DNA from: a virus
IMG/VR virus record: IMGVR_UViG_3300033151_000656
Location: 1 to 29,284 of that record
Length of the DNA: 29,284 bases
Strand: one strand, 5' to 3'
Shown here: piece by piece, positions 373-25,198 of the stretch
How the letters are laid out: the number at the start of each line of letters is the position of its first letter
Numbering within the stretch: the first letter of the stretch is position 1
Made by a program: the position numbers and the translations under genes
The notes under the pieces: generated by a model
What the model was told of the DNA's origin: nothing
What the model saw: only the letters and a program-made list of their open reading frames with translations
Databases searched by the model: none

Positions 373-926
373 GGAACTCTCTTGTAGAAGATAGTGAAGG
401 CTACTGGCCATACCACTGAACTATCCTCAAAATCAGTTGACGGCGGATAATAAGGGTATTGATTAAATGTAGCATTGTATTCAATCATGGCCTGGCAAGG
501 CTTTCCAAAGTTATCAATGTCAACCGTAACCTTTCGCCCTGATGTCGTCTTGGGCGGGGTACCAGCCTCGTTGAAACCCTTGGTGCTTGGTGGATCAAAC
601 CACCAGAATCCACTAACCAGCCCGGTAGGGATAAATTTGAGATCGTACGTGTTTGCCCCTGAATAAAACGTATTGCGCTCTGATTGCGCCCTGGTGACAG
701 GTTTAGGGCTTTGGGTGCTCCCCATCGAACCGGTTGAAGGAACGATCCTTGTCACCTGGATAGAAGGGTCATGCTGCACTATCAGGTATGCAGTGGCGTT
801 TTGCAGCAGGTCGTCATTTCTGTTGAACTGACTGGCAACCTCATCAATAGCTGCAAACGTAAACAGGCTACTATCCGATTGCTCGTCAGTCTCGGCTGTC
901 CATGTCGCACTCGGACTCTCAGACAT
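369..926 (-). CDS. tail-region protein, unknown
   Basis: About 185 residues. The ATG at 926 (MSESPS) is preferred because a GAGG lies six bases upstream and it overlaps the TGA stop of the large hub protein by 8 bases; an in-frame ATG three codons earlier is possible. The C-terminal half is rich in Tyr, Pro and Phe and looks like a beta-structured virion protein. No family is recognised. The gene sits between the 846-residue lectin/hub protein and a small unknown gene, so a role in the distal tail is inferred from place only. Confidence 0.65.
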   Translation of the reverse strand: MSESPSATWTAETDEQSDSSLFTFAAIDEVASQFNRNDDLLQNATAYLIVQHDPSIQVTRIVPSTGSMGSTQSPKPVTRAQSERNTFYSGANTYDLKFIPTGLVSGFWWFDPPSTKGFNEAGTPPKTTSGRKVTVDIDNFGKPCQAMIEYNATFNQYPYYPPSTDFEDSSVVWPVAFTIFYKRVP

Positions 927-3459
927 GATCCTCATCTCTCAGTTTGAATTTAAGATCATCAGGTCGCCCGTTATAAGCAGTCACTAAAAAGTTCCTACGG
1001 CGCACCTTGCAGGTTACCTCGCCTGCGCTCCAACCACTCACAGCGGCCTGTAACGCCCCGTCTCCTGATGCTTTGATCGTACCTAACGAACGATTACAGC
1101 CCCAATCAACAGAAATAAACTCATAAATTGGCAGGGGGAACGAAATCTTACCCTCATCAAACTCAAGGCTCTTCGTAACCTCAATAATCTCCTCAGAGCC
1201 GCCTGGAATCTGAACATTACCACACTCAGTATTGCATGTAATCAGCTCGAACGGAACCCACGGGTACCGGTACCCGCGTATAATGGCCTTGCTCGGGTCA
1301 TCCTCATCCTGTATAATCTCCGGGGCTGGAAATATCACGGACTCTGACTCGGCAACGTTACGTACTGTCACGGCGTTGTACAGCGGCGTGGTCGGGTAGT
1401 CCTGCTGGATATCTATCGCGTACTCGGACTCCGGAATAATCAGGTCGTAATCGTCAAATCCAGGAACAAGTAGTTCATCCCAGTTTTTTGCCAGCTTTGG
1501 ACGGATCAGCAGGTTACCATCGATGTCCGGGCCGATCCACGCCAGTGGATACAACTCGTTGATTATCTCAATCGGGTACCGCTGGCCACCGTCCAAATCC
1601 TGAAGGAGGGGGTAATCACCATACTCCAGTGTATACGGCAGGTAGGGCAGGCAGAGGTCATCAAGCACCTCATGGGTAAGAGTACCCGCAGGCCAGACGG
1701 TAGTAACCGGGTTTGACCCATATGCAAATTCACTATCTCCCACCGCCTCCGGAAGGCGGCCTAGCTGAGCAGTCGGGCTTACCAGATCAAGAGTGACCGT
1801 CCGCACGTCGCCTTGATCCGTAGCTGAAGCAGAAAATGATGCTTGTTTATAAATCAGCTGAATTTCCTTGTTCACCACCGGGACTATCATGCCACCCTGA
1901 AGGCGGGATGAATACCATGTTAAAGTTGCTATCCCACCGAGGCCAAGGGTAGTGAATCTTTGGTCGTTAGGAACCTGCACCTGGAACTGGTTGTAATATC
2001 CATTGCGACCACCAGCGGTATTGATACAGTCCAGCTGAACGCTGTCTACAACTGTAGACAGTCCAGCTTTAACAGAAAAATTATCAATCAGGCCATTGAG
2101 CCATAGGGAATAATGCTCCTCATATAGCTCGTTGCCCCTGAAAAACAGGTTAAACAGGTAATCCCGCTCAATGAATACCTGCCCCGCTCGAACTGCAAAA
2201 TCATAAATCGCCTGATACAGTTCATAGGCGATCAGGTCAAAATTATAATCGGTCTCAAATTGCTTTGCACGCTCCAGGTTAAATGGATAACCAGTTTCAT
2301 ATTTTATGGCGGGTCGAACCTGAAAATTATACGCCGCCTGGGCTACTGGGGCTGGTATTGTGCGGTAGCTGTAAAATTGCTCAGTTAAGTTGCTCAATAA
2401 AAAGGAGTAATCACTCTCTGTGGATATAATAATATCCCACAGTATAAGATTATCGCCCAGCCCATTATGATATACTTCTGACCATGCCTCGGTCTTCAAC
2501 CCTGAAAGAAATTGAACATCATCAAAGATACCCTCCCAGAGATCACCGACCGTAGCGCCGTCGTATTCTTGCCCGATAGAAATCTGGTCACCTGCTGCAT
2601 TGCCTATCCCTGCCGCTCCATCTGTCCACTGAAGTACTCCATCAAGATGAAATGATAATACCCCAGTGAATCTGTTATACGATAAAACAAGCGTATGGAA
2701 TTCCCCGTCCCGTACAGCATCATCGCTGGCACGATCTGTTAATGATGAGCCAGAGGCATTAAACGCTATGATTCGCTGGTTAGATTCGTTGCGATTATAC
2801 ACTAGCATGACATTACCACCGCTAGCGGTATTTATAGATATCTGCGCAGTGTTACGCGATACATTGTTGTATTCAAGACGAGTTGCAATGGTCCAGTCAG
2901 CCAGTAGGTCTCCAGCTACGCCGCTTATGTCGGCCCATGATGCCCCGTCCAACTCTATCCCACCGCTGCCAGTGTCGGTAATGGCGCTGGTTATCGCCCC
3001 TGATACTGCTCCGTTGTATCCGTTGAAAGATGAATCAATTAATGCAGATGCAGGATCCTCATCGGTGCATCGTAAAACTAGAGCTGCCATTTCATCTTGC
3101 GCCGAGGCAGCGGCCAAAGAACCAGGAGTTCCGACATATTCGGTATTATCAGGCTGCGTTGCGTCCCAGTACAGAGTAATGTAGTTATCTCCGATACTGG
3201 TTTGCGGTACTTTTATTTGCAGCACAGCAAACTCAGCATTGGCATCCCACTGCGGTTCTTCTATGTATAATTGGCTGCCAGATCCTTCAAGTTCAGCGGC
3301 AATTTTGAGATTATTAGCCCCGATATCAGTAAAAATAGCGGTCATGTCTATGTTGTTTTGCCCGCACTCTGCTGATAAAAAAACTGCTATATTAATGTTA
3401 TATAATACTTCTGTCGTCGAAAAAGAAAATCTCTTTGAATTTGCCCAACCAGCAATCAT
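919..3459 (-). CDS. LamG-domain tail-tip / hub-like protein
   Basis: An 846-residue protein, the second largest in the window. Residues about 25-105 resemble the DUF2341 beta domain. Residues about 125-335 look like a concanavalin A/LamG-type fold, with the usual pattern DSSFNGYNG, W..AT.L, FHTLVLSY, LDGV and IFDDVQFLSG. Residues about 349-449 hold a tandem repeat of Y-x-F-x-L/V units. From about residue 600 the protein resembles siphophage tail-hub proteins (VLDDLC, then IEIINELYPLAWIGPDIDGN and LLIRPKLA). It starts at an ATGA overlap with the zinc-ribbon gene. The lectin-like part suggests surface glycan binding; this is inferred from the fold, not shown. Confidence 0.75.
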   Translation of the reverse strand: MIAGWANSKRFSFSTTEVLYNINIAVFLSAECGQNNIDMTAIFTDIGANNLKIAAELEGSGSQLYIEEPQWDANAEFAVLQIKVPQTSIGDNYITLYWDATQPDNTEYVGTPGSLAAASAQDEMAALVLRCTDEDPASALIDSSFNGYNGAVSGAITSAITDTGSGGIELDGASWADISGVAGDLLADWTIATRLEYNNVSRNTAQISINTASGGNVMLVYNRNESNQRIIAFNASGSSLTDRASDDAVRDGEFHTLVLSYNRFTGVLSFHLDGVLQWTDGAAGIGNAAGDQISIGQEYDGATVGDLWEGIFDDVQFLSGLKTEAWSEVYHNGLGDNLILWDIIISTESDYSFLLSNLTEQFYSYRTIPAPVAQAAYNFQVRPAIKYETGYPFNLERAKQFETDYNFDLIAYELYQAIYDFAVRAGQVFIERDYLFNLFFRGNELYEEHYSLWLNGLIDNFSVKAGLSTVVDSVQLDCINTAGGRNGYYNQFQVQVPNDQRFTTLGLGGIATLTWYSSRLQGGMIVPVVNKEIQLIYKQASFSASATDQGDVRTVTLDLVSPTAQLGRLPEAVGDSEFAYGSNPVTTVWPAGTLTHEVLDDLCLPYLPYTLEYGDYPLLQDLDGGQRYPIEIINELYPLAWIGPDIDGNLLIRPKLAKNWDELLVPGFDDYDLIIPESEYAIDIQQDYPTTPLYNAVTVRNVAESESVIFPAPEIIQDEDDPSKAIIRGYRYPWVPFELITCNTECGNVQIPGGSEEIIEVTKSLEFDEGKISFPLPIYEFISVDWGCNRSLGTIKASGDGALQAAVSGWSAGEVTCKVRRRNFLVTAYNGRPDDLKFKLRDEDHV

Positions 3460-12323: not shown

Positions 12324-13153
12324 CTATCGATTTGGTTGATTTTTATTACGAGCAGCGTCGGCTTGCTGCTTCCGGATAATTTTCAGATGGTCCTCGTATA
12401 CATCCCAAGAATATTCCCATGCGTTGGCATGCCCGTATGAGGAGACGAGCATACCAATGTTGTGGGTTATTCCGTCTGCAAACTGCCTCCAAGACCTGTT
12501 GGAAGAGTTCCGAAGGTGGCTCCTACCGGTTTTTTGTTCCGCTCCGCGTCCAGAACCACACCCCTCCCTTTGACTGCTTCCCTCATGGCCTTCACTTCTC
12601 CCCTGGCTGCGGCGATCTCCGCTCCTACCTCCGCCCCCAGAGCCTCCTCTGTCTTCGCTGGCCCAGGCGTCTCTTCCTCTGTCACTTGGGCCGGTACTTT
12701 CTCGGGAGCCTTCTTGGCCTTGCCTTGGATCCCCACTCGGCGGCACAGTCGAGTTATCATCGGCCCCACCATCCGCGCGGCTGACCATGATAAAAAATCA
12801 GGATTCACATCCTCCCATGCTTTCAGGAGAGCATCAAGATCGCCTGTATCTTCCGACAGGGGTAATGCACTCATGAGGCCGTCAAGATCTTCAACGGATT
12901 CCAGGAATATATCCTCGTGGATACCGGCATTGACCAGGCGGGCAGACAACAGCTGAACCATGATTTCGTCACTATGCGACAGCGATTGTGTGAAAAAGTC
13001 TTGCACGCTCAGCAGTTCCTTTTCGCTCGCCGTCCCCGTGTTTGCAGATATTTCCTGCATCGCGGCGTACCGCTTGGAGAATGCACCGATCCTCTTTACT
13101 GATAAAGTGCGGATTACTATCTTTTCTTCTCCTACAGAGACGATTTTTATCAT
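12324..13153 (-). CDS. tape-measure chaperone GT (frameshift product)
   Basis: Predicted -1 frameshift fusion. Translation starts at 13153 in the G frame and slips at a run of six A residues (minus strand, 12535-12530; codons AAC AAA AAA CCG). It then continues in the other frame to the TAG at 12326-12324. The added part reads as a real protein (WRQFADGITHNIGMLV, then YGHANAWEYSWDVYEDHL) and has no start of its own in the right place. Lambda G/GT and the tail assembly genes of many phages, Mu included, use the same arrangement. The product would bind the tape measure during tail assembly. Confidence 0.7.
12467..13153 (-). CDS. tape-measure chaperone G
   Basis: A 228-residue unshifted product directly upstream of the tape measure. 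The N-terminal part is an alpha/beta domain (MIKIVSVGEEKIVIRTLSV) like tail assembly chaperones; the C-terminal part from about residue 150 is a low-complexity Glu/Ala/Lys linker. It overlaps the end of the 86-residue gene by 4 bases (ATGA-type). The unshifted protein should be the major form, with a minority of ribosomes making the GT fusion. Confidence 0.75.
   Translation of the reverse strand: MIKIVSVGEEKIVIRTLSVKRIGAFSKRYAAMQEISANTGTASEKELLSVQDFFTQSLSHSDEIMVQLLSARLVNAGIHEDIFLESVEDLDGLMSALPLSEDTGDLDALLKAWEDVNPDFLSWSAARMVGPMITRLCRRVGIQGKAKKAPEKVPAQVTEEETPGPAKTEEALGAEVGAEIAAARGEVKAMREAVKGRGVVLDAERNKKPVGATFGTLPTGLGGSLQTE
12530..12536 (-). other. -1 ribosomal frameshift site
   Basis: On the coding strand the bases read C AAA AAA followed by C. 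The P- and A-site AAA codons can both step back one base, the second with perfect re-pairing. The shift leads into the downstream frame that encodes the T extension. The site is near the end of the G frame (17 codons before its stop), as usual for G/GT pairs. I see no convincing downstream pseudoknot by eye. Confidence 0.6.
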
Positions 13154-14922: not shown

Positions 14923-15405
14923 CTAATATCCTTTCATGCTGTCGCGGCTGAATTCTCGCTTATCTACAGAGAATGTAACCGCATTTGGAGATTTAACCAC
15001 AACCGGTGCCGTAATATCCAAATCACCAGAGGCAATTTTATCCAAAAGCGTTTGCATATCGTTGCAGCTCTTTGTTATTGCGTCAACTTGGGTGCTAGTG
15101 GATGCCCCCTGCGCCTTAGTCGCGTAAGGCCTGCGCCTCCACAGGGAACAAATAGTCAGGGTTGCAGAAATCTTGGTAGCCACGCCCGACACGGGATTAA
15201 GGGGGAGCGGGGCGTGTCCGGAAGCGTAGAAATCAATCTGATCGTCAGAATCTTTGATAAGTGCATCAACAATATCCCAGTTGACCAAGGCTTCTTTTTC
15301 TGCATCAGTCATACCCCTTGAGGGCTCTGTACCTGTGGTGGTTAACCGGATAAGTTCCTCTATGCTCATCCGGTCAAGGATATCCTGATGGACAGAATAG
15401 GCCAT
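14923..15405 (-). CDS. gp36-like head-tail connector protein (DUF1320)
   Basis: A 160-residue protein with the signature start of the Mu gp36/DUF1320 family: a short N-terminal YSVHQDILDRMSIEELIRLT, then DIVDALIKDSDDQIDFYASG and the PLPLNPV turn. It overlaps the preceding stop by TAATG at 15405. Family members join head to tail in Mu-like phages. Its place between the FluMu-type gene and the tail completion gene agrees. Confidence 0.8.
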   Translation of the reverse strand: MAYSVHQDILDRMSIEELIRLTTTGTEPSRGMTDAEKEALVNWDIVDALIKDSDDQIDFYASGHAPLPLNPVSGVATKISATLTICSLWRRRPYATKAQGASTSTQVDAITKSCNDMQTLLDKIASGDLDITAPVVVKSPNAVTFSVDKREFSRDSMKGY

Positions 15406-15962
15406 TATTCCTTACCTTCCACCCGCTGTTCATCCAGCAGGGCCATAGCTCTGTCCCGCTCTTGGCCGGTCACTTTCCATCCGACCATAGCGGAAAGAGC
15501 TTTTGTTTTCGGCACTTTTCCCGCAAATTTACTTTCATCCCTTGGCAGTATAGAGATTAAAGATTCACAAGTATCGACCAGCTCATTAAAAGGGTGATCA
15601 TCAGGGGCACCTTCTACTTCGACGGGGGGCGCAAAAAGATTCACAATCTTTTCACGCAGACCATCCTCAGTCCCGTAATCCTCGGCAAACGGCTGGAGCA
15701 CAGCTGTCGCCAAGTCAATCGCTTCCTCCATGTCTAATCCCTCTAGCGGTGAAGGAGGGGTACAAGCCAGGCGATCAACAGCCTCTTCAACCTCACAAAT
15801 GTTAAAGCCGGGATCATCCTCGAACTCCCGGATTTGAGCCGCATTGAAGGTACCAACCGGATAAAGCTTCCGGCCTGCGGTATGTCCGACACCACCACGG
15901 TACCTGCCTCCCGGTACATTGCAGATTACTTCAATAAGTTTTTTTGGAATAACATCACTCAT
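15405..15962 (-). CDS. FluMu-type gp35-like protein
   Basis: A 185-residue protein. Residues about 18-60 (RYRGGVGHTAGRKLYPVGTF, then the IREFEDDPGF motif) match the N-terminal domain typical of Mu-like FluMu gp35/HI1506 proteins. The rest is acidic and probably helical. It follows the major capsid gene and has GGAG seven bases before its ATG at 15962. The exact role in the virion is unknown to me. Confidence 0.7.
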   Translation of the reverse strand: MSDVIPKKLIEVICNVPGGRYRGGVGHTAGRKLYPVGTFNAAQIREFEDDPGFNICEVEEAVDRLACTPPSPLEGLDMEEAIDLATAVLQPFAEDYGTEDGLREKIVNLFAPPVEVEGAPDDHPFNELVDTCESLISILPRDESKFAGKVPKTKALSAMVGWKVTGQERDRAMALLDEQRVEGKE

Positions 15963-15974
15963 GATTATCTCCTA

Positions 15975-16895
15975 TCAACCTGCGCCGGTTGAGCCCACAG
16001 CAAGCTGTGGAAAAGTATATCCTGCGGCCCCACGGCCTTCGTTTCCGTACAGGTACTTGGCCCGTTTAAAGACCTCTTCGGTTTCTGTCCCGATCATCTG
16101 CACAAAGTGTGCTTTTTTACGCTCCTGAAAAACAAAGGGCTTGAAATAGCTGTGGTCAGCCATCAGCATCCACTGAGTTGTCCAACCCAGACGCTTATTG
16201 ACCTTGACCTTAAACATGCCCTTATTAGGGTTCTTGCTCTGGTCGTCCAACTCATCCTGGTTGGCCAACTTAAATGCGGTCTCGCGCAGGGCAGATCCAA
16301 CAACAAGGGTGCCAGCTGCTAGATTGAGAGGTTGCCCCTCAGTATCGGCAAACGTTTCCATCTTGGTAATGGCAGCGCCAATGGAGGCGGAAGCACTAGC
16401 GGCAGTAGTAGCGGACAGAACAGCAGTTATCTTGTTACTATACGTTACTGTTGTTCCAGTCGAATCAATCTGCGGGTGATCCGTATCAAAGAAAAATTGT
16501 CCATCAAAACACAACGCTGTGAACGCAGCCTTGATCACATCTGCAACGAGAATGTCAGGCCACTCCATAGCAGAGATCCCAGCCGCCTTTGATGCATCAG
16601 CGTAATCGCCGTAGATATCATCCTCAATATCATCACGGTCTACTTCGATAGTCGCTTCATACGGCTTATTCTCAAGCTCGTATTTATAGGCGGCTAACGC
16701 CTTGATCATTTTTTCCCCAATCCACAATCGCATGATTGGAAATCGTTGAAACCATCGATAAATCTCTTTTGTTGTCGTAGACTTGCGCAACATAGCGTAG
16801 TCACTCCACTCAGGTACAACACTCTTTGCTCCAAGGCTCCAGTCTACATGGAGCCCCTGAAAGAAAGCACTAAGAGATGCCTTGTTCAATATCAT
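15975..16895 (-). CDS. Mu gpT-like major capsid protein
   Basis: A 306-residue protein of the Mu major head subunit family. Visible marks are the N-terminal LNKASLSAFFQGL, the RWFQRFPIMRLWIGEK segment, YEATIEVDRDDIEDDIYG and FFFDTDHP, all in the expected order for gpT (HK97 fold). The usual family length is about 300. It follows the decoration protein and precedes the gp35-like gene, the Mu order. It would form the icosahedral shell after processing of the scaffold. Confidence 0.93.
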   Translation of the reverse strand: MILNKASLSAFFQGLHVDWSLGAKSVVPEWSDYAMLRKSTTTKEIYRWFQRFPIMRLWIGEKMIKALAAYKYELENKPYEATIEVDRDDIEDDIYGDYADASKAAGISAMEWPDILVADVIKAAFTALCFDGQFFFDTDHPQIDSTGTTVTYSNKITAVLSATTAASASASIGAAITKMETFADTEGQPLNLAAGTLVVGSALRETAFKLANQDELDDQSKNPNKGMFKVKVNKRLGWTTQWMLMADHSYFKPFVFQERKKAHFVQMIGTETEEVFKRAKYLYGNEGRGAAGYTFPQLAVGSTGAG

Positions 16896-16909: not shown

Positions 16910-17323
16910 TTAATCAAACCAAATAAGGACGCCAAAGGTCGCGTCGAGCTGAATTGCTGTACCGGCTATAATGCTGTTTGTACCGGTAGCGCTAGATACT
17001 GTTTCATCATCCTCAATATAGATAGATGCCAGGCCATGCAGATGTGCTTTCGTTACGGCGGCGGTACCGCTATTTGCATACCAAAATGCACGGAGGCGGC
17101 GCAGCTTTACAGTTTTGTCTGCGGCAGCGCCTGCTGAGTTGTCAACGTATTCTTCGATACGTCCAACTACCTTCAGCCCAGCCGCATCGGCTGCCGGAAG
17201 AACATCACCAGCTGCATTGACAGCCCCCATTGCCCCCGCATATAAAGTTTTTGCGGCGGCAACAGTGAGCACAACAACTTCACCATCTTGCATAGAGGTA
17301 TTGCGATCTGCTGATGTAGCCAT
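16910..17323 (-). CDS. head decoration-like protein
   Basis: A 137-residue Ala/Val/Thr-rich protein with no Cys, starting TAATG-coupled to the protease gene at 17323. The layout (short basic N-terminus, AAKTLYAGAMGAVNAAGDVLP, then GRIEEYVDN) resembles capsid cement or decoration proteins that Mu-like phages place between protease and major capsid. It would stabilise the shell from outside. Confidence 0.7.
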   Translation of the reverse strand: MATSADRNTSMQDGEVVVLTVAAAKTLYAGAMGAVNAAGDVLPAADAAGLKVVGRIEEYVDNSAGAAADKTVKLRRLRAFWYANSGTAAVTKAHLHGLASIYIEDDETVSSATGTNSIIAGTAIQLDATFGVLIWFD

Positions 17324-18372
17324 TATTCTTCTGCTCCTTGCCCGTACTCAAGCATTTGTTCTTTTGTGTGGCCAAATTGTTTGGCAACTTGGAGCTGGTA
17401 CTCATCCAAATCGCCGGGGGTTTTCACTTCTTTTTGTTTGTCGGGCAACTTGGCAGGCAGCTGAACCATCATGGATGCAGCTACAATCTCAAAATTTGCC
17501 GGGTCACTGATGGCCATCGACAAAAAGAGGGGTTCGCCCTGGGCGTTTTGCTGTTTGAGCATGTCCGGAGTAAACCGATCCGAAAACTTAGCCATGAGCT
17601 TCTCGGCCTCTTGGCCTGCAAGTTTAGCTTCCAGTACTTCAATGCGCCCCGCTGATTCAGCCTCACCGGTCGCAGCAGCCGTCATAGTGGTCAGCTTTGC
17701 CAACACCAAGGGCTCAGTGACTTCCGGGCTCAATCCCAGCGCCGTGGCCACCTTGGCAGATATCACGGTTGGCTTTACGGCTTCCTTGTCGGCCAGCTCG
17801 GTGAGCTTGGCCGTGATCATAGCGACCGCGTCTTTTTCCGTTGCACCTTCGACCAGACCAAGGCCTGATAGGGCAATAAGTGCTGCAAGTAGGTCCACAT
17901 CCACCTCCTGCTGATCGCTGTAACTTGCAACCAGAGCGTTAATATTATTTGTTTTTGGGTCGTTAGTTAATGCGCAATTATAAATGCGTGTGAGTTCCAG
18001 CTTGCCGTTTATTTTTGCAACGGTGAATACAGGGGAAAAATATCTATATTCCCTTTTGTTCAGGTGCTCTTTAGCAATCTCTGTCCATTCAACCTTTGCC
18101 CAAATCCCTTTATCATCGTATCTCCAGTCCTTAATCCAACCAGAGGCAGGGGCTTTTTTCCCTGTCATCGTCTGGTGTTCGTAGTCAAACACCAGGTCAT
18201 TGCCACGTCGATCAATATGCGCTTTAGCTGAGATCCAGCTTTCTTTCGTTACAGAATACTTAGGACCTCCTTCAAGCTGAGCTTCGCCTTTAGGAAAAAT
18301 AAGGTACCATTTGGGCAGGTCCCCTTCAGGGAGATCAAGCGCAGATACTTTTGCGTAATATTTTCTTTTCAT
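17323..18372 (-). CDS. Mu I-like head protease / scaffold
   Basis: A 349-residue protein of the Mu I family. Residues 1-165 form the protease domain, with LIFPKGEAQ, VFDYEHQT (residues 61-68, carrying the conserved His), ASGWIKDWRYDDKGI and REYRYFSPVF. The C-terminal half is Ala/Glu/Lys-rich and helical, suiting a scaffold that is later cleaved, as in Mu where protease and scaffold share one frame. It lies between the G-like and decoration genes. Confidence 0.9.
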   Translation of the reverse strand: MKRKYYAKVSALDLPEGDLPKWYLIFPKGEAQLEGGPKYSVTKESWISAKAHIDRRGNDLVFDYEHQTMTGKKAPASGWIKDWRYDDKGIWAKVEWTEIAKEHLNKREYRYFSPVFTVAKINGKLELTRIYNCALTNDPKTNNINALVASYSDQQEVDVDLLAALIALSGLGLVEGATEKDAVAMITAKLTELADKEAVKPTVISAKVATALGLSPEVTEPLVLAKLTTMTAAATGEAESAGRIEVLEAKLAGQEAEKLMAKFSDRFTPDMLKQQNAQGEPLFLSMAISDPANFEIVAASMMVQLPAKLPDKQKEVKTPGDLDEYQLQVAKQFGHTKEQMLEYGQGAEE

Positions 18373-18382
18373 CTTTTACTTG

Positions 18383-18904
18383 TTAATCTCCCATAATATG
18401 GCTTTCAGCAGCATCTTCAGCATCATCAATATCTTCTGATTGCAGCATAAGGAAGCGCCGCGCAGGAATTTTTCCAAACGGCGTTTGCATCGTCCGGGTG
18501 TGTGACCGGACGGATACAGTACCGTGTATTGTTACACGAGTATGAGCCCGCACACTTGCCGCAACGGTCCCGAATTCACCTTTATCAGCGCCGAAATTTT
18601 GCAATGCCGCGTAAATCAGGTTGGTACCAAACGACACAGAATCCTCTGCAACATCAAAAATGCTGCCTGGAGCACCAGGGATAAAGCTGGCCTGAAGCCT
18701 ACCGGTGTCTCTCAGTGGTTGCCCATCACGGTGCTTTAGGGCATCCCATGTATTGGGTCGCCCCCCAACATCAAAGTTTGTGCGGACAGATTGTGCCCCA
18801 AGCCTTCCGATGGTATCCAGCATCGGTTTACGGTGCTGAAGCCGGGAGAGGATTCTGTTGATTCTCTCCGCAAGGTCTCCCTCTATCTGTATTGCATCAC
18901 TCAT
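18383..18904 (-). CDS. Mu G-like virion morphogenesis protein
   Basis: A 173-residue protein with marks of the phage virion morphogenesis family: ARG/QSVRTNF at the start, PLRDTGRLQASF, SVSFGTNLIYAALQNFG and IPARRFLML near the end. It is the first gene after terminator/promoter copy B, so it opens the capsid transcription unit. In Mu the G protein is needed for tail joining. An untranslated leader of about 150 bases separates it from the predicted start of transcription. Confidence 0.88.
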   Translation of the reverse strand: MSDAIQIEGDLAERINRILSRLQHRKPMLDTIGRLGAQSVRTNFDVGGRPNTWDALKHRDGQPLRDTGRLQASFIPGAPGSIFDVAEDSVSFGTNLIYAALQNFGADKGEFGTVAASVRAHTRVTIHGTVSVRSHTRTMQTPFGKIPARRFLMLQSEDIDDAEDAAESHIMGD

Positions 18905-19422: not shown

Positions 19423-20175
19423 TTAGTATTTTCCATATAAGCGATCTTTCAGAAGCTCTCTCCCCAAATCCAGAAGCCTCTGAGCACCCTGGTAACACGT
19501 CTTGGCATGGCTCATATCCTCGCCGTCATGCATGTCAACAAAATCAGACCAGGATTCAATCTCTCCGCTATCAATCTGATTTGCCGTCATCAGCATCATT
19601 GTCAGCTGTTCCTCCACAAGATTTTCATAAGCCTTCTTTCTCCGGTGCGCCCTTACCAAAGAAAGCTCTTCGCCGCTCAGCTCTTCATTGTCAATGATTG
19701 CCGTATCTTCGGGTGTCATCTTTGCACAAAGTCCTGGGTTAGGGTACCTGCCGATAATCGATAGCCCCTCTAGTGCGTTTGTCAATATTTCAGTCTTGTA
19801 CTGCATGGCGGCAAAATTGATGTCAGAGAACTTAAAGGTGGGCTTTAAGGGCGTGATGGTGTCTAAGGTATTCTCCTCACTGGCCAGCTCATCAATCCAT
19901 GCCCATCGTTCTTCTTCCGTCAATGTGGCAAGGGTTGGGTCAGCTTGCACTTCAAACGATTTATTATCTTCCATTATATCCTCAAGGGTAGATTTCAACA
20001 TAGCAAAGGGGCAGACCTCCGCATGTCCATATCCGGTTATTGATTGCTGACAAGCACCACACCACTCTTCCCTCTCTTCTCCGTCCCGCCCGGTCTCTGC
20101 CCAGAAGTTATAATCGCGGGTGAGCCTGTAGGCGCACAGGATAAGCAGGCTTATCTTTTGGCCTTCCGTTTTCAT
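19423..20175 (-). CDS. protein with N-terminal CCHC zinc-like motif
   Basis: A 250-residue soluble protein, coupled by ATGA to the gene before it. C39, C42, H51 and C55 (WCGACQQSITGYGHAEVCPF) can form a zinc site; the rest is acidic and helical (for example EELSGEELSLVRAHRRKKAYE). It is the largest gene of the insert between the F-like and G-like genes. No family is recognised, so the function is open; a regulatory or host-interaction role is only a guess. Confidence 0.65.
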   Translation of the reverse strand: MKTEGQKISLLILCAYRLTRDYNFWAETGRDGEEREEWCGACQQSITGYGHAEVCPFAMLKSTLEDIMEDNKSFEVQADPTLATLTEEERWAWIDELASEENTLDTITPLKPTFKFSDINFAAMQYKTEILTNALEGLSIIGRYPNPGLCAKMTPEDTAIIDNEELSGEELSLVRAHRRKKAYENLVEEQLTMMLMTANQIDSGEIESWSDFVDMHDGEDMSHAKTCYQGAQRLLDLGRELLKDRLYGKY

Positions 20176-20444
20176 GGTTGCTGGTGGCCTGCGGACTCGT
20201 ATTCGTGACGGATATCGTCGTTAATCCCTGCAATGAAGGCATTAACTATTGTTTCTTCGCAATAATCGTCATTCAATTCTGATGAACTTATCGTCCAATC
20301 ATACTCATACCTTTTTTTATTCAAAGTGCAAACAAAGTATACACTTACGACAAGCGAGCAGTCCTGCTTGCGGATTTCAACAGAGCACTTGCAGTTTATC
20401 CCTTCCTCTATCTTGTAGAGGGTCTTATAGAGAGCTTGCAGCAT
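20172..20444 (-). CDS. small protein, unknown
   Basis: A 90-residue protein joined by TAATG to the preceding gene and by ATGA to the next. The N-terminal half has a beta pattern (CKCSVEIRKQDCSLVVSVYF); the C-terminal half is helical and acidic. Five cysteines are spread without a clear metal motif. Unknown function. Confidence 0.6.
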   Translation of the reverse strand: MLQALYKTLYKIEEGINCKCSVEIRKQDCSLVVSVYFVCTLNKKRYEYDWTISSSELNDDYCEETIVNAFIAGINDDIRHEYESAGHQQP

Positions 20445-21061: not shown

Positions 21062-22078
21062 CTAAAATGTGATGCGTTCGATCACAACCCGGCCAGCGGC
21101 ATCCACAATCACATCAATCCGGCTTGCACCTTTTGCCACGGCCCAGCCGGTATCTGTTGCAACCCAGCGCCCTGTATCAAGTATACCCTGCACCCTACTA
21201 TAATCAGCCGCAGCTGCACCAGCCTCAAGGGCCTCGGTGACCTGCTCCGCCGTGGTTACCACGGCCCGGCTACTTGCCCCGGCAGATGCGAGCACCTCAT
21301 CAGAGGCGGCCGCAACTGGGAAGCTCCCCTTTGGGCGTTCAGACCACAACTCAAAGAATTGACCAGAGACAGAGTCCTCCGTTGATTTACGGGAGGTTGC
21401 TTCGGGCCATGTATTTAATTTTTGTTCGTATTGATCAACGCTTCCGCCATAAACAACTTTTCCGGGATTGACCTCAAAGCCTTCTCCGGGCTGCTCATCC
21501 TTTTGCAGATCCGGCAAACCTTCCTGAACGTCTTCTCCACTCCTTCGCACGGATCCGGCAGTCCTGCCGGTCAAGGAAGAGCGTCATTGGAAATGATTAG
21601 TCGGGGCAATGGTATTGAGAGCAGGATCTTCTCTGCGGAAGGTAAGCCCAGAAAGCCGCTTGCATATTGGCGTTATACGTCCGTCATTGATGGAGCTATA
21701 AGAGACAAAAGGAAACAGGTTGCCAGTGTTTATCTCTGCCCAGTTTCCGGCGCTCAGTGCCCCTTGCATATTGGTGCGGAAAATATTATCAATCCGGTAC
21801 GGCTTTTCTGTGTCCCAACCTCGCCGGGAAAAGACCTCAGCAGCGTCTTTTTTGAATTGTTCGAGAGTCGTGCCCTCTTTGATTGCCCGCTGGATTGCCC
21901 GCTGGACCGTATCAAGCTCGTCCCCCTTGGCTATACTGGCAACAGCAAAGGATTGGACTTTCTCCTCTGCCGTCATTTCCTTGTAGACTTCTGGGCTTAC
22001 GTTTACTTTCTCTTCCCAGTATTCCTCCGCCTTAGTCATGGGCAGGGAAAACGGGCTATCAATGACTAAGCGGGCCAT
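21062..22078 (-). CDS. F: Mu F-like minor head protein, probable selenoprotein
   Basis: Read through one in-frame TGA (21586-21584) the gene encodes 338 residues, the expected size for Mu F/SPP1 gp7-type head morphogenesis proteins. Residues 85-164 hold the conserved core (IFRTNMQGALSAGNWAEI, then SINDGRITPICKRLSG). The family normally continues with a Cys-Arg pair after HF/NxF; here position 165 is TGA followed by CGC (Arg). The downstream half keeps the family motif GFEVNPG at 200-206, so both halves are one gene. A SECIS-like hairpin follows. Without readthrough only a 164-residue fragment is made. It is TAATG-coupled to the portal gene. A plain nonsense mutation is the alternative. Confidence 0.8.
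21555..21570 (-). promoter_or_regulatory. SECIS-like hairpin
   Basis: On the coding strand CCGGCA, loop GGAC, TGCCGG: six G/C-rich pairs starting 13 bases after the TGA. The loop opens at base 23 counted from the U of UGA and begins with GG. The apical ten bases GCAGGACTGC differ at one base from GCAGGTCTGC of the E. coli fdhF SECIS, as I recall that element. Bacterial SECIS elements lie in the coding region just after the UGA and are bound by SelB. Confidence 0.65.
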
Positions 22079-23745
22079 TATTCAGCCTGCTCTTTATCAA
22101 CCTGCACCACTCTCCGACCGTGCAGGTTCGCATTCACCAAGCCTATTTCAACGTTATTGCGCAAGCTTTCCATCTCAAGCCGAGGCCACACCTCAAGCAT
22201 CGCTCCAGCGAGATCCTCAACATCTCCCTGGTAGGAAGCCACGAAAGCCAGCATTGCATCCTCGTTGCTAGAGAGGTCTGTTGCTGCAACCAGGGCCGCA
22301 GCATGGTCTTCAATCGCCTGCTGCTCCGGAGTATACTCTTTTTTTGTCAGGCGAGCCGCTGCCCGGACGAGCTTGGCCGCGATAGCTGTATCTTTCTTAT
22401 CCGTTGCCTTTTCTTCCTCTTTATTATCTTCGGTATCTTCATCAATCTCTCCTTCGTCGGGGGAAACCGGAGAGGAAGTCGGGCCAACCAGGCTGGCAAC
22501 CGTAACATCACCCGATTGCAAGGGCATCAAGCCAAACTGCTCTTCAATCCACGGCACGCTGATTTGCCCCTTAAGCAAGGAAGCCAGTGGGGCGACCCAC
22601 TCAATCTTTGCCTTGAGATCTTCCTGTCGTTTCAGGAGGGCGTTAAATCTAGGAAGTGGCGTGTCCCAGCCGAAGTGAAAACCAACAAGTGGAGCGATCC
22701 ATTGGTCAAGGTCAGTGGCTGTCGTCTCCTGTGCGTCAGCCAGAGTGAGGTCTGCTCGTACCCCTGTTTCTAGGGTATGTAGGGCGTAGGAACCTGATTT
22801 TCCAGCCTCAGAAAAGGCAGCAGATCCGACAAGGGCCTTGCTGATTTCAGCATTGCAAAAATTGACCTGCAGCTCCCACAACTGCGCCCCGCTGACCGAT
22901 TTCGCGGCCTCCATAAACTCGATTTTTGTCGAGGAAGAAATAGTGGCGGCAAAGTCTGTACCGATGCCACGAACTGCGGCCTCTAGCTGTTTGATATCAG
23001 CCGGATCGGTTCCAGGCTCGTAGATGCCGAGTCGGAGGGGGATACCACACAGCTCGGAAAATACCCACCAATCACGCACCGCGAAGTGTTTGAACACCAT
23101 CATCCATGTGACCGGACGGAAAACTCCGGAGCGGGTACCATGTCGACTCAGGCCTCCGTAGGTATGGAGAAATAGCGACCGAGGATGGATCTCTTCGCCT
23201 TTTGGGTGATCATCCGTAACCAGCAGGGGCCAGTCACGGAGGAAGCCGGTTCTTGGGTCCTGAAATATTAATCGCTTATGCTCGATAAAGTTAAAGCTTT
23301 TAACCGTATACGTCTTATGATCCCACTCGGGCGCTAAACCAGCATACCCAAAGCTTACTGCGGACTGTTGCGCTTTTTTGTATTTATCCCAATCATCATG
23401 ATTGAGGACATTTTGTTGGATAAACTCGACAACATCAAGGTCGCGTTGCGAATCAGAAGCGGGGGTTAGCTGCCAATCAAGATATTGGCTCGTTATCGCA
23501 TTGACTCGTTTTTTCTCCTCGGAAACGATGTGTGCATCATGTTCCAACAGCTGCTCAAAGAGCTGGGCCTGCTGGTTCATGTCGCCTTGATCAGCGCGGC
23601 GGAAGATAGGGCCGATCTTTTCCGGGGTTAGTCCATCCGTGATGTACTCACGGTTGCTTTTCGTTAACGGAGCAGCGGGCAGGGGTCGCCGTGGCGGTAA
23701 TGTTGTTGTCCGCATGATGTTGCCGTTTTTATCGTAAATTGGCAT
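22078..23745 (-). CDS. portal protein (Mu gp29-like, DUF935)
   Basis: A 555-residue protein of the Mu gp29 family: N-terminal LTPEKIGPIFRRADQGDMNQ, then EHDAHIVSEEKKRVNAI and DWQLTPASDS, and later the STKIEFMEAA and GSYALHTLETGVRADL stretches. It sits between the large terminase and the F-like gene, the Mu order. An acidic linker lies near residues 430-460 (EGEIDEDTEDNKEEE). It forms the dodecameric DNA entry ring at one head vertex. Start at 23745 with AAGG three bases upstream. Confidence 0.93.
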   Translation of the reverse strand: MPIYDKNGNIMRTTTLPPRRPLPAAPLTKSNREYITDGLTPEKIGPIFRRADQGDMNQQAQLFEQLLEHDAHIVSEEKKRVNAITSQYLDWQLTPASDSQRDLDVVEFIQQNVLNHDDWDKYKKAQQSAVSFGYAGLAPEWDHKTYTVKSFNFIEHKRLIFQDPRTGFLRDWPLLVTDDHPKGEEIHPRSLFLHTYGGLSRHGTRSGVFRPVTWMMVFKHFAVRDWWVFSELCGIPLRLGIYEPGTDPADIKQLEAAVRGIGTDFAATISSSTKIEFMEAAKSVSGAQLWELQVNFCNAEISKALVGSAAFSEAGKSGSYALHTLETGVRADLTLADAQETTATDLDQWIAPLVGFHFGWDTPLPRFNALLKRQEDLKAKIEWVAPLASLLKGQISVPWIEEQFGLMPLQSGDVTVASLVGPTSSPVSPDEGEIDEDTEDNKEEEKATDKKDTAIAAKLVRAAARLTKKEYTPEQQAIEDHAAALVAATDLSSNEDAMLAFVASYQGDVEDLAGAMLEVWPRLEMESLRNNVEIGLVNANLHGRRVVQVDKEQAE

Positions 23746-23747
23746 CC

Positions 23748-25198
23748 TTACAAAGCTCCTGCCCGGCTCTTGAACCGGCGCTTATCGAGTGATTTATATT
23801 CAGGTGTTCCGCCACCGGTCTGCAGGAGACTCACTGCTCCTTCGAGCGCGTCGGGGCCATCATCGTTGATGTTTGCATCTTCCAGATACCACAGCTGCTC
23901 AATCAGCAGGTTTTGGTCGCTATGGTTGCGGCAGAACCTGAGCTTTCCTTGCTGATAGATATAAGATAGAGTGCCAACAATTCTGGCCTCTTTATTTGTA
24001 TTATGACGGACGGCCTTCCAGGGGAGATAACCCTCTCAACCGCTGCTTGACAGGCATTCAGCATGCCGGTAACTGATCCGTGCTGAATCCAGGCGTGCAG
24101 GATGTAGAAAATCATTGCTTTACGATCAAGGCCGATAGTTACAATTGCCTTGAAATCGTTCTTCTTTGCATTTTTTGCAGAGGGGTCGCAGAAAGATGCA
24201 ACTGCTAAATCTTGCGGTAAAGAGAGGTGGTCGTCATAATATTTTACCAAGGCAGATTTAAATTCAGCATCCTCTGACTCGGTACGATTCATGAATTCTT
24301 TAAGAAAAGCTTTAAGTCCAATTTGCTTTATCTTCGCAAGGAGGCGCTTCATGGGCCAAAGTGCAGGCCATAGAGGACGCTCATCGGGTGTATCATGGTC
24401 TATGATTGCAGCAAGAACGCAGGAGTCATATCGCTGATCACCGGCCTCATCTACTTCCGCGACCATTTGCGCGATTGCTGAGCGTGGAGAAAACATATTC
24501 TGCGCATAGACCATCAGGCCGGTGGCACTCATACTGCCGAGCACCGCACTCTTTATCCAATCTACGCGGTTCTGTGTTTGCTTTGGGCTCCTAACTGTCT
24601 GATCATTCTCCAAGTCATCAAGGCATATATAGTCAGGTCGGTGCTGCCGATGCTTCCGCCCTCGGACAGGCTCACCGAATCCTCTTGCCCAGCAGCGGAC
24701 CCCATTCGCGGTCACGAAATTACTGCTTGTCCAGGGCGAGCCTATGAGGTCACCAAAATCATGCCGTATCCTATGGTTTCCCTCTATCTCTGCCTTCAGA
24801 GCCATAACAAAGTCTGTAGCAAGATCGTTAGTGTCAGAACCCAGGATGTTGAACCAACGTTTTGCATAAACAATATTATGGAGAGGTACCCCAAAAGACC
24901 AGAACGTTGATTTGGCATGTTCTCGCGGAACAACAGCAAGAAAAACGTGATTCATTACTTCGGATATTTCTGCCCATTCGCTGTGAAATGGAGCGAAGTC
25001 AACCGTGAAATAATGGGGGAGATACTTCTTGAAAAAATAAAGTTGATCATGCTCAGACCTCGCGATCCGCGCGGTCTGTTTCTCCGGCGTATCATTTTCA
25101 AACGGGGAAACAGACTCTGATACCCACTTGAGAAGCGCAGCGGCCTTGTCGTCATACTGCTTTTCTGTGATGTTTCGCCGCTTTCGCATGGTCGCCAT
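23748..25198 (-). CDS. terL: terminase large subunit, frameshifted
   Basis: ATPase: Walker A at residues 91-98 (PREHAKST), Walker B at 190-195 (YICLDD). The nuclease domain begins with CDPSAKNAKKNDF (first Asp 338). The frame as read stops at 23903 after a nonsense tail. A second frame from about 24031 gives the true family C-terminus (TNKEARIVGTLSYIYQQGKL, later DDGPDALEGAV) and ends at 23748, two bases before the portal start. One base lost in a G run (plus-strand CCC at 24031-24033) would restore AVERGYLPW. In addition about 25-30 residues around the second nuclease acid appear missing between MLNAC and GYLPW. Real damage or an assembly error are both possible. Confidence 0.85.

Follow-up and report, generated by a model that had tools for sequence, protein, structure and literature searches.

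SPP1 gp7 is the best-studied relative of the phage Mu gp30 (protein F), or MuF, family of minor head proteins (PF04233, TIGR01641, phrog_220). It is located in the capsid and binds the portal, each capsid having one to two, or a few, copies (PMC5576092, PMC6316719); assembly proceeds without gp7, efficient infection needs it, and only ~25% of SPP1 virions devoid of it are infectious (PMC6316719). The locus presented here also resembles a second class of described systems, the bacterial selenoprotein genes that carry a bSECIS hairpin after their UGA. The published rules for this hairpin specify a loop of 3-9 nt with G in the first two positions (mostly N0-1 G[G/U]), a stem of 4-16 bp, a distance of 16-37 nt after the UGA and an energy of -7.5 kcal/mol or lower (PMC13188914). 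In E. coli, recoding of UGA to selenocysteine (Sec) reaches an efficiency of 30-40% when selenium suffices (PMC4513850).

The window, by which we mean the whole stretch of DNA that was analysed, 29,284 bases of an IMG/VR virus record, carries a gene encoding the same domain as Mu gp30 and SPP1 gp7. As in Mu and MuF systems, this F gene neighbors a Mu-type portal gene, and the head module that includes both has the same gene order, with G-, I- and T-like genes coming after F. The gene is interrupted by an in-frame TGA that very probably encodes selenocysteine. No tRNA genes were found in the window. The features are the following:

22078..23745, minus strand: portal protein gene (Portal_Mu), directly upstream of F, 38% identical to the portal of a related prophage (G523, below)
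21062..22078, minus strand: F, MuF / phage Mu gp30-like minor head protein; the read-through product is 338 aa with U165
21575..21913, minus strand: MuF domain (PF04233 match) with a predicted one-His-two-Cys site, C139, H162 and U165
21584..21586, minus strand: in-frame TGA in place of the invariant Cys of the H-x-x-C-R motif, putative selenocysteine codon
21062..21583, minus strand: C-terminal half of F, which would be produced only upon decoding of the TGA
21555..21570, minus strand: SECIS-like hairpin CCGGCA-GGAC-TGCCGG, loop 19 nt past the TGA
18383..18904, minus strand: gene G-like virion morphogenesis protein, same head module as F
17323..18372, minus strand: Mu I-like protease/scaffold, same head module as F
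15975..16895, minus strand: Mu gpT-like major head protein, same head module as F

A single TGA at codon 165 (21586-21584, minus strand) breaks an otherwise intact frame of 338 residues that is closed by TAG, and the residues around it, APTNHFQ before the TGA, RSSLTG directly after it and GEGFEVNPG further on, all lie in one frame. The read-through protein scores 54.9 bits against Pfam Phage_Mu_F (PF04233, curated cut-off 29.6) and 50.4 against TIGR01641 (curated cut-off 39.65), and is matched by phrog_220 (minor head protein and DNA pilot); all three matches span the TGA. When the 173 residues after the TGA are searched alone, residues 1-172 align in register with the C-terminal half of Cys-type F proteins, the best match being L254 from a Desulfobulbaceae genome (E 4e-16 in a small local database), indicating that coding continues in the same frame. 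phrog_220 finds on this half alone a collinear, if weak, continuation. The column of the TGA holds Cys in 9 of 9 aligned phage F proteins, including Mu gp30, and in 234 of 234 domains of a larger set. In accordance with the sequence-only reading that preceded this analysis, one in-frame TGA thus splits an F-like gene whose halves share a single frame in 21062-22078, it stands in place of a conserved Cys, and coding is intact beyond it.

Two extra ORFs lie between F and G (19423-20444, minus strand), the longer of which has no Pfam or PHROG match; in the G523 prophage, G comes almost directly after F. Elsewhere in the window, a pair of ORFs immediately upstream of the tape-measure gene (12324-13153, minus strand) overlap in different frames, with the run ACAAAAAACC in their overlap near 12530, and look like a tail-chaperone frameshift pair. 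A tail-region protein (919-3459, minus strand) carries a Laminin_G_3 lectin-like domain (residues 186-324) and possibly serves in host or surface binding.

A question arises, is the TGA a decoded codon or a lesion? Relatives were drawn from IMG/VR and also from genomes of bacteria and archaea, with all three stop codons read through. Single-protein scans with F or the portal yielded no confirmed relatives in viral contigs and a first ten-member alignment was too diverse as a search query; alignment queries succeeded. The domains were found by profile and each needed a recognisable motif as its anchor, at which Cys or any stop was accepted, and TGAs elsewhere in the domain would have been retained and counted. 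Among 371 distinct MuF domains (60,076 codons) we find 20 in-frame TGAs, 13 at C165 and 7 at C167, and no internal TAA or TAG. All 20 therefore fall on two motif-Cys columns out of ~160, a placement that is not due to chance, and the Cys/TGA pairing that had been suggested as a check is found at the same site in further F-like homologues. In a tree of 86 domains that includes the first ten Sec genes, with TGA codons masked, the 10 Sec rows require 9 changes between Cys and Sec, at least 7 of them forced by well-supported branches; although this tree cannot separate gain from loss, it points to repeated exchange of Cys and Sec in the MuF family. In one phage F gene (L134, 3980-4591) both motif positions are TGA (NGYNURUTV), and a single hairpin lies 24 and 18 nt past the two codons. 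In a separate MuF subgroup with the motif CKC (L435, L438, L454, L459), two genes read UKC, the first Cys being replaced, and two others read CKU, the second being replaced. TGAs at +57/+58 in L134, L136 and L138 were considered as Sec codons and rejected, being ordinary stops near the domain end.

The same evidence bears on the view that a sequencing error, or the nonsense mutation of a prophage in decay, produced the TGA and left F broken, with only a 164-residue fragment possible. A single substitution turns TGC or TGT into TGA, and the contig contains some sequence error or decay, as the terminase large-subunit ORF (23903-25198, minus strand) ends early while a terminase-like C-terminus, NKEARIVGTLSYIYQQG...DDGPDALEGAVSLL, lies in another frame at ~23760-24030, implying a frameshift near 24,000. 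Yet random decay would scatter stops over all three codons and cannot give the pattern of 20 TGAs on two columns. The same TGA, moreover, occurs in a chromosomal prophage (G523) and recurs across several assemblies of related contigs, L221, L223 and L224 among them, and the half after it is conserved. We consider decay or error highly improbable. A split-gene reading of F was rejected, given the TGA-only pattern and the match of the post-TGA half to Cys-type F proteins.

If the TGA encodes selenocysteine, as we believe, a bSECIS may be expected behind it. The window's hairpin, with its GGAC loop, 6 bp stem, spacing of 19 nt and energy of -9.4 kcal/mol (bare stem), conforms to the published bSECIS rules, and our own hairpin score ranks the F TGA among the best 1% of the window's TGAs. 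The loop region of the hairpin, GCAGGACTGC, is similar to the E. coli fdhF form, GCAGGUCUGC. Across the family, a bSECIS test composed of the published loop core and an uninterrupted stem at or below -7.5 kcal/mol is passed by 10 of 19 Sec genes vs 6 of 344 Cys homologues (Fisher p = 6.6e-11, an optimistic value since the rows are related); random TGAs pass at a rate of ~2.4%. The hairpins of L203 (CCACC-GGUC-GGUGG), L221 (CCACA-GGUC-UGUGG) and L236 (CCACA-GGUU-UGUGG) keep the GGU loop while a stem pair shifts from C-G to A-U, and a hairpin of this type is absent in the Cys relatives L207, L235 and L290 despite the same VHR peptide. In the groups with a CGUGA loop, the hairpin overlaps a conserved peptide and the Cys-type sibling L129 has the same hairpin, so the SECIS evidence is weaker there; in another Sec gene, L490, the rules are satisfied only with bulges. 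The two kinds of gene are alike in mean folding energy past the codon (-10.8 kcal/mol for Sec vs -10.5 kcal/mol for Cys), the folding z-score of the window itself is only -1.15, and an Rfam search gave no SECIS match. Sec and Cys genes are thus told apart only by the position- and loop-specific hairpin test, not by average folding.

The hosts were approached via the genome loci of F relatives. The nearest genomic relatives of F are found in Desulfobulbus, Desulfobulbaceae, Desulfocapsa and other Desulfobacterota. One genome, G523, is a Desulfobulbales chromosome and shares its order with Desulfocapsa sp. NORP205. It harbors a prophage with a head module syntenic to that of the window (besides the portal, identities are 43% for G, 40% for I, 46% for gpT and 34% for F) and with a TGA at the same codon of its F, PLNGYNURC. 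This genome encodes selA (616 bits), selB (369 bits), a tRNA-Sec with a UCA anticodon and a selD (348 bits) with its own TGA. Hence selA, selB, selC and selD are all present in G523, which is the host of the related prophage. In a second Desulfobacterota genome (G159), which may be an incomplete assembly, a TGA is located at the motif Cys of a very different MuF protein; selA and selB are present, tRNA-Sec is unconfirmed and no full selD was found. This distant MuF (L360, G159:C20:12000-18500, match at 15095-15460 of the contig) reads DARVCPEC...PVHTFURCCW and adjoins a portal-like gene. Almost all MuF genes in the Desulfobacterota survey are without TGA, so that selenocysteine is the minority form even there.

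Pairing of Cys with TGA cannot by itself tell Cys from Sec, and UGA could be read as Cys, whether through a Cys-tRNA whose anticodon is UCA or through misincorporation guided by SelB. Cys-carrying opal tRNAs have been reported from some bacteria, which counts in favor of this possibility, as does the best tRNA-Sec-like match in G159, called tRNA-Cys (GCA) by ARAGORN. Opposing it are the SECIS-like hairpins behind the TGAs and the complete set in G523 of selA, selB, tRNA-Sec with a UCA anticodon and TGA-containing selD, and we regard a cysteine reading as very unlikely. The earlier view that the Cys-to-TGA pattern marks a selenoprotein gains support from recurrence, from the hairpin and from the sel genes of the related prophage's host, and the case for selenocysteine is stronger than that reading could see. 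From these data we infer the actual insertion of selenocysteine, the identity of the host and the chemical role of the site. The window would belong to a Mu-like phage with a Sec-coding F, most likely in a Sec-decoding Desulfobacterota host. Host SelB and Sec-tRNA would decode the UGA, aided by the hairpin ~19 nt downstream, yielding a 338-residue F in which Sec replaces the motif's invariant Cys; translation that fails to decode it would stop after 164 residues and lose the C-terminal half.

What might selenocysteine do at this site? At columns 140, 162, 165 and 167 (column 140 being residue 139 of the window), 220 of 234 domains read H-(G, A or D)-C-C and the other 14 read C-H-C-x, with no exceptions; His at 140 goes with a non-His at 162 and Cys at 167, and Cys at 140 goes with His at 162. 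Both sets thus hold one His and two Cys, arranged as H140/C165/C167 in most relatives and as C139/H162/C165 in the window. Because this swap of positions is ligand-like, our preferred guess from the alignment is a metal site in which Sec replaces one of the two Cys; the site may instead have a redox or disulfide (thiol) role. Searches of the PDB by sequence or by fold returned no relative, and hence no solved relative with a metal bound at the motif, and a predicted model cannot show a metal. The AlphaFold model is confident in the motif region (pLDDT about 90-97) and partly ordered in the C-terminal part past the TGA; among viral models, named matches are mostly MuF, head morphogenesis or minor capsid proteins.

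F, like other MuF proteins, would be present at very low copy number, on the portal within the head, and at a recoding efficiency of 30-40% it could tolerate partial termination. The earlier proposal that head assembly is tied to selenium is too strong, since SPP1 gp7 is dispensable for assembly (PMC6316719). Given the E. coli efficiency (PMC4513850), both a short and a long product are expected in any case, which on the face of it suits a regulated stop, with the 164-residue fragment as the working product and near-cognate read-through giving a minor extended form. The TGA, however, is inside the conserved CxC motif rather than in a linker, so truncation would destroy the motif; other members keep the second Cys right past the TGA, and a read-through switch would need no Cys column. 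Such a stop appears still less probable than either decay or a cysteine reading. That TGA is a sense codon throughout the phage would account for an in-frame TGA and is nonetheless exceedingly improbable, as TGA is the ordinary stop of 15 of the 32 window genes and F is the only well-supported gene with an internal one.

If selenocysteine is indeed encoded, F would add a selenoprotein family of bacterial viruses that is structural rather than enzymatic, and a protein of the virus particle would depend on selenium. The dependence of a phage on the selenium supply and SelB of its host becomes testable, as does the chemistry of the long-unexplained Cys motif of MuF. On a broader view, to which we give an even chance of being right, selenocysteine is a recurrent virion building block: many phages of Sec-decoding anaerobes would have repeatedly swapped Cys and Sec in their F-type minor head proteins, at either or both of two ligand positions of the conserved metal or thiol site, coupling virion infectivity to host selenium and confining these phages to Sec-decoding hosts. 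As a practical warning, F genes of phages that infect sulfate reducers and comparable hosts will come out of gene calling split or truncated, and they should not be counted as pseudogenes.

How does this locus stand beside known systems? Known MuF members have Cys at the motif, whereas F of the window very probably has Sec, in the rarer C139/H162/C165 arrangement. Genes for bacterial selenoproteins that carry a bSECIS, such as E. coli fdhF, resemble it in having UGA at a conserved Cys and a GG-initial loop 19 nt downstream, and SelB-type machinery is likewise present in the host of the related prophage. The known bacterial selenoprotein families are mostly cellular enzymes or redox proteins, in contrast to a virion component. 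In the main text of open-access bacterial selenoprotein papers from 2006 to 2026 we find no phage or capsid selenoprotein, and a search of the open-access literature for the combination of phage and selenoprotein found none; the suggestion that surveys list Sec-containing Mu F-like domains has no counterpart in the main text of the open-access surveys. Within this literature, the kind of protein is known and the Sec form, recurrent in many phages, appears to be new. In SaoB, SaoC and UXX-star, Sec was proposed as a metal ligand within a set of metal-ligand-like residues (PMC13188914), as in MuF; these proteins are unrelated to MuF and act in heavy-metal transport and resistance, and metal binding by MuF is suggested by its sequence. 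Basilisk-like Bacillus phages (PMC6145125) likewise link a phage to Sec decoding, yet they carry a tRNA-Sec gene, and the passages on it mention no selenoprotein, whereas the window has a structural gene with a Sec codon and would rely on its host for decoding.
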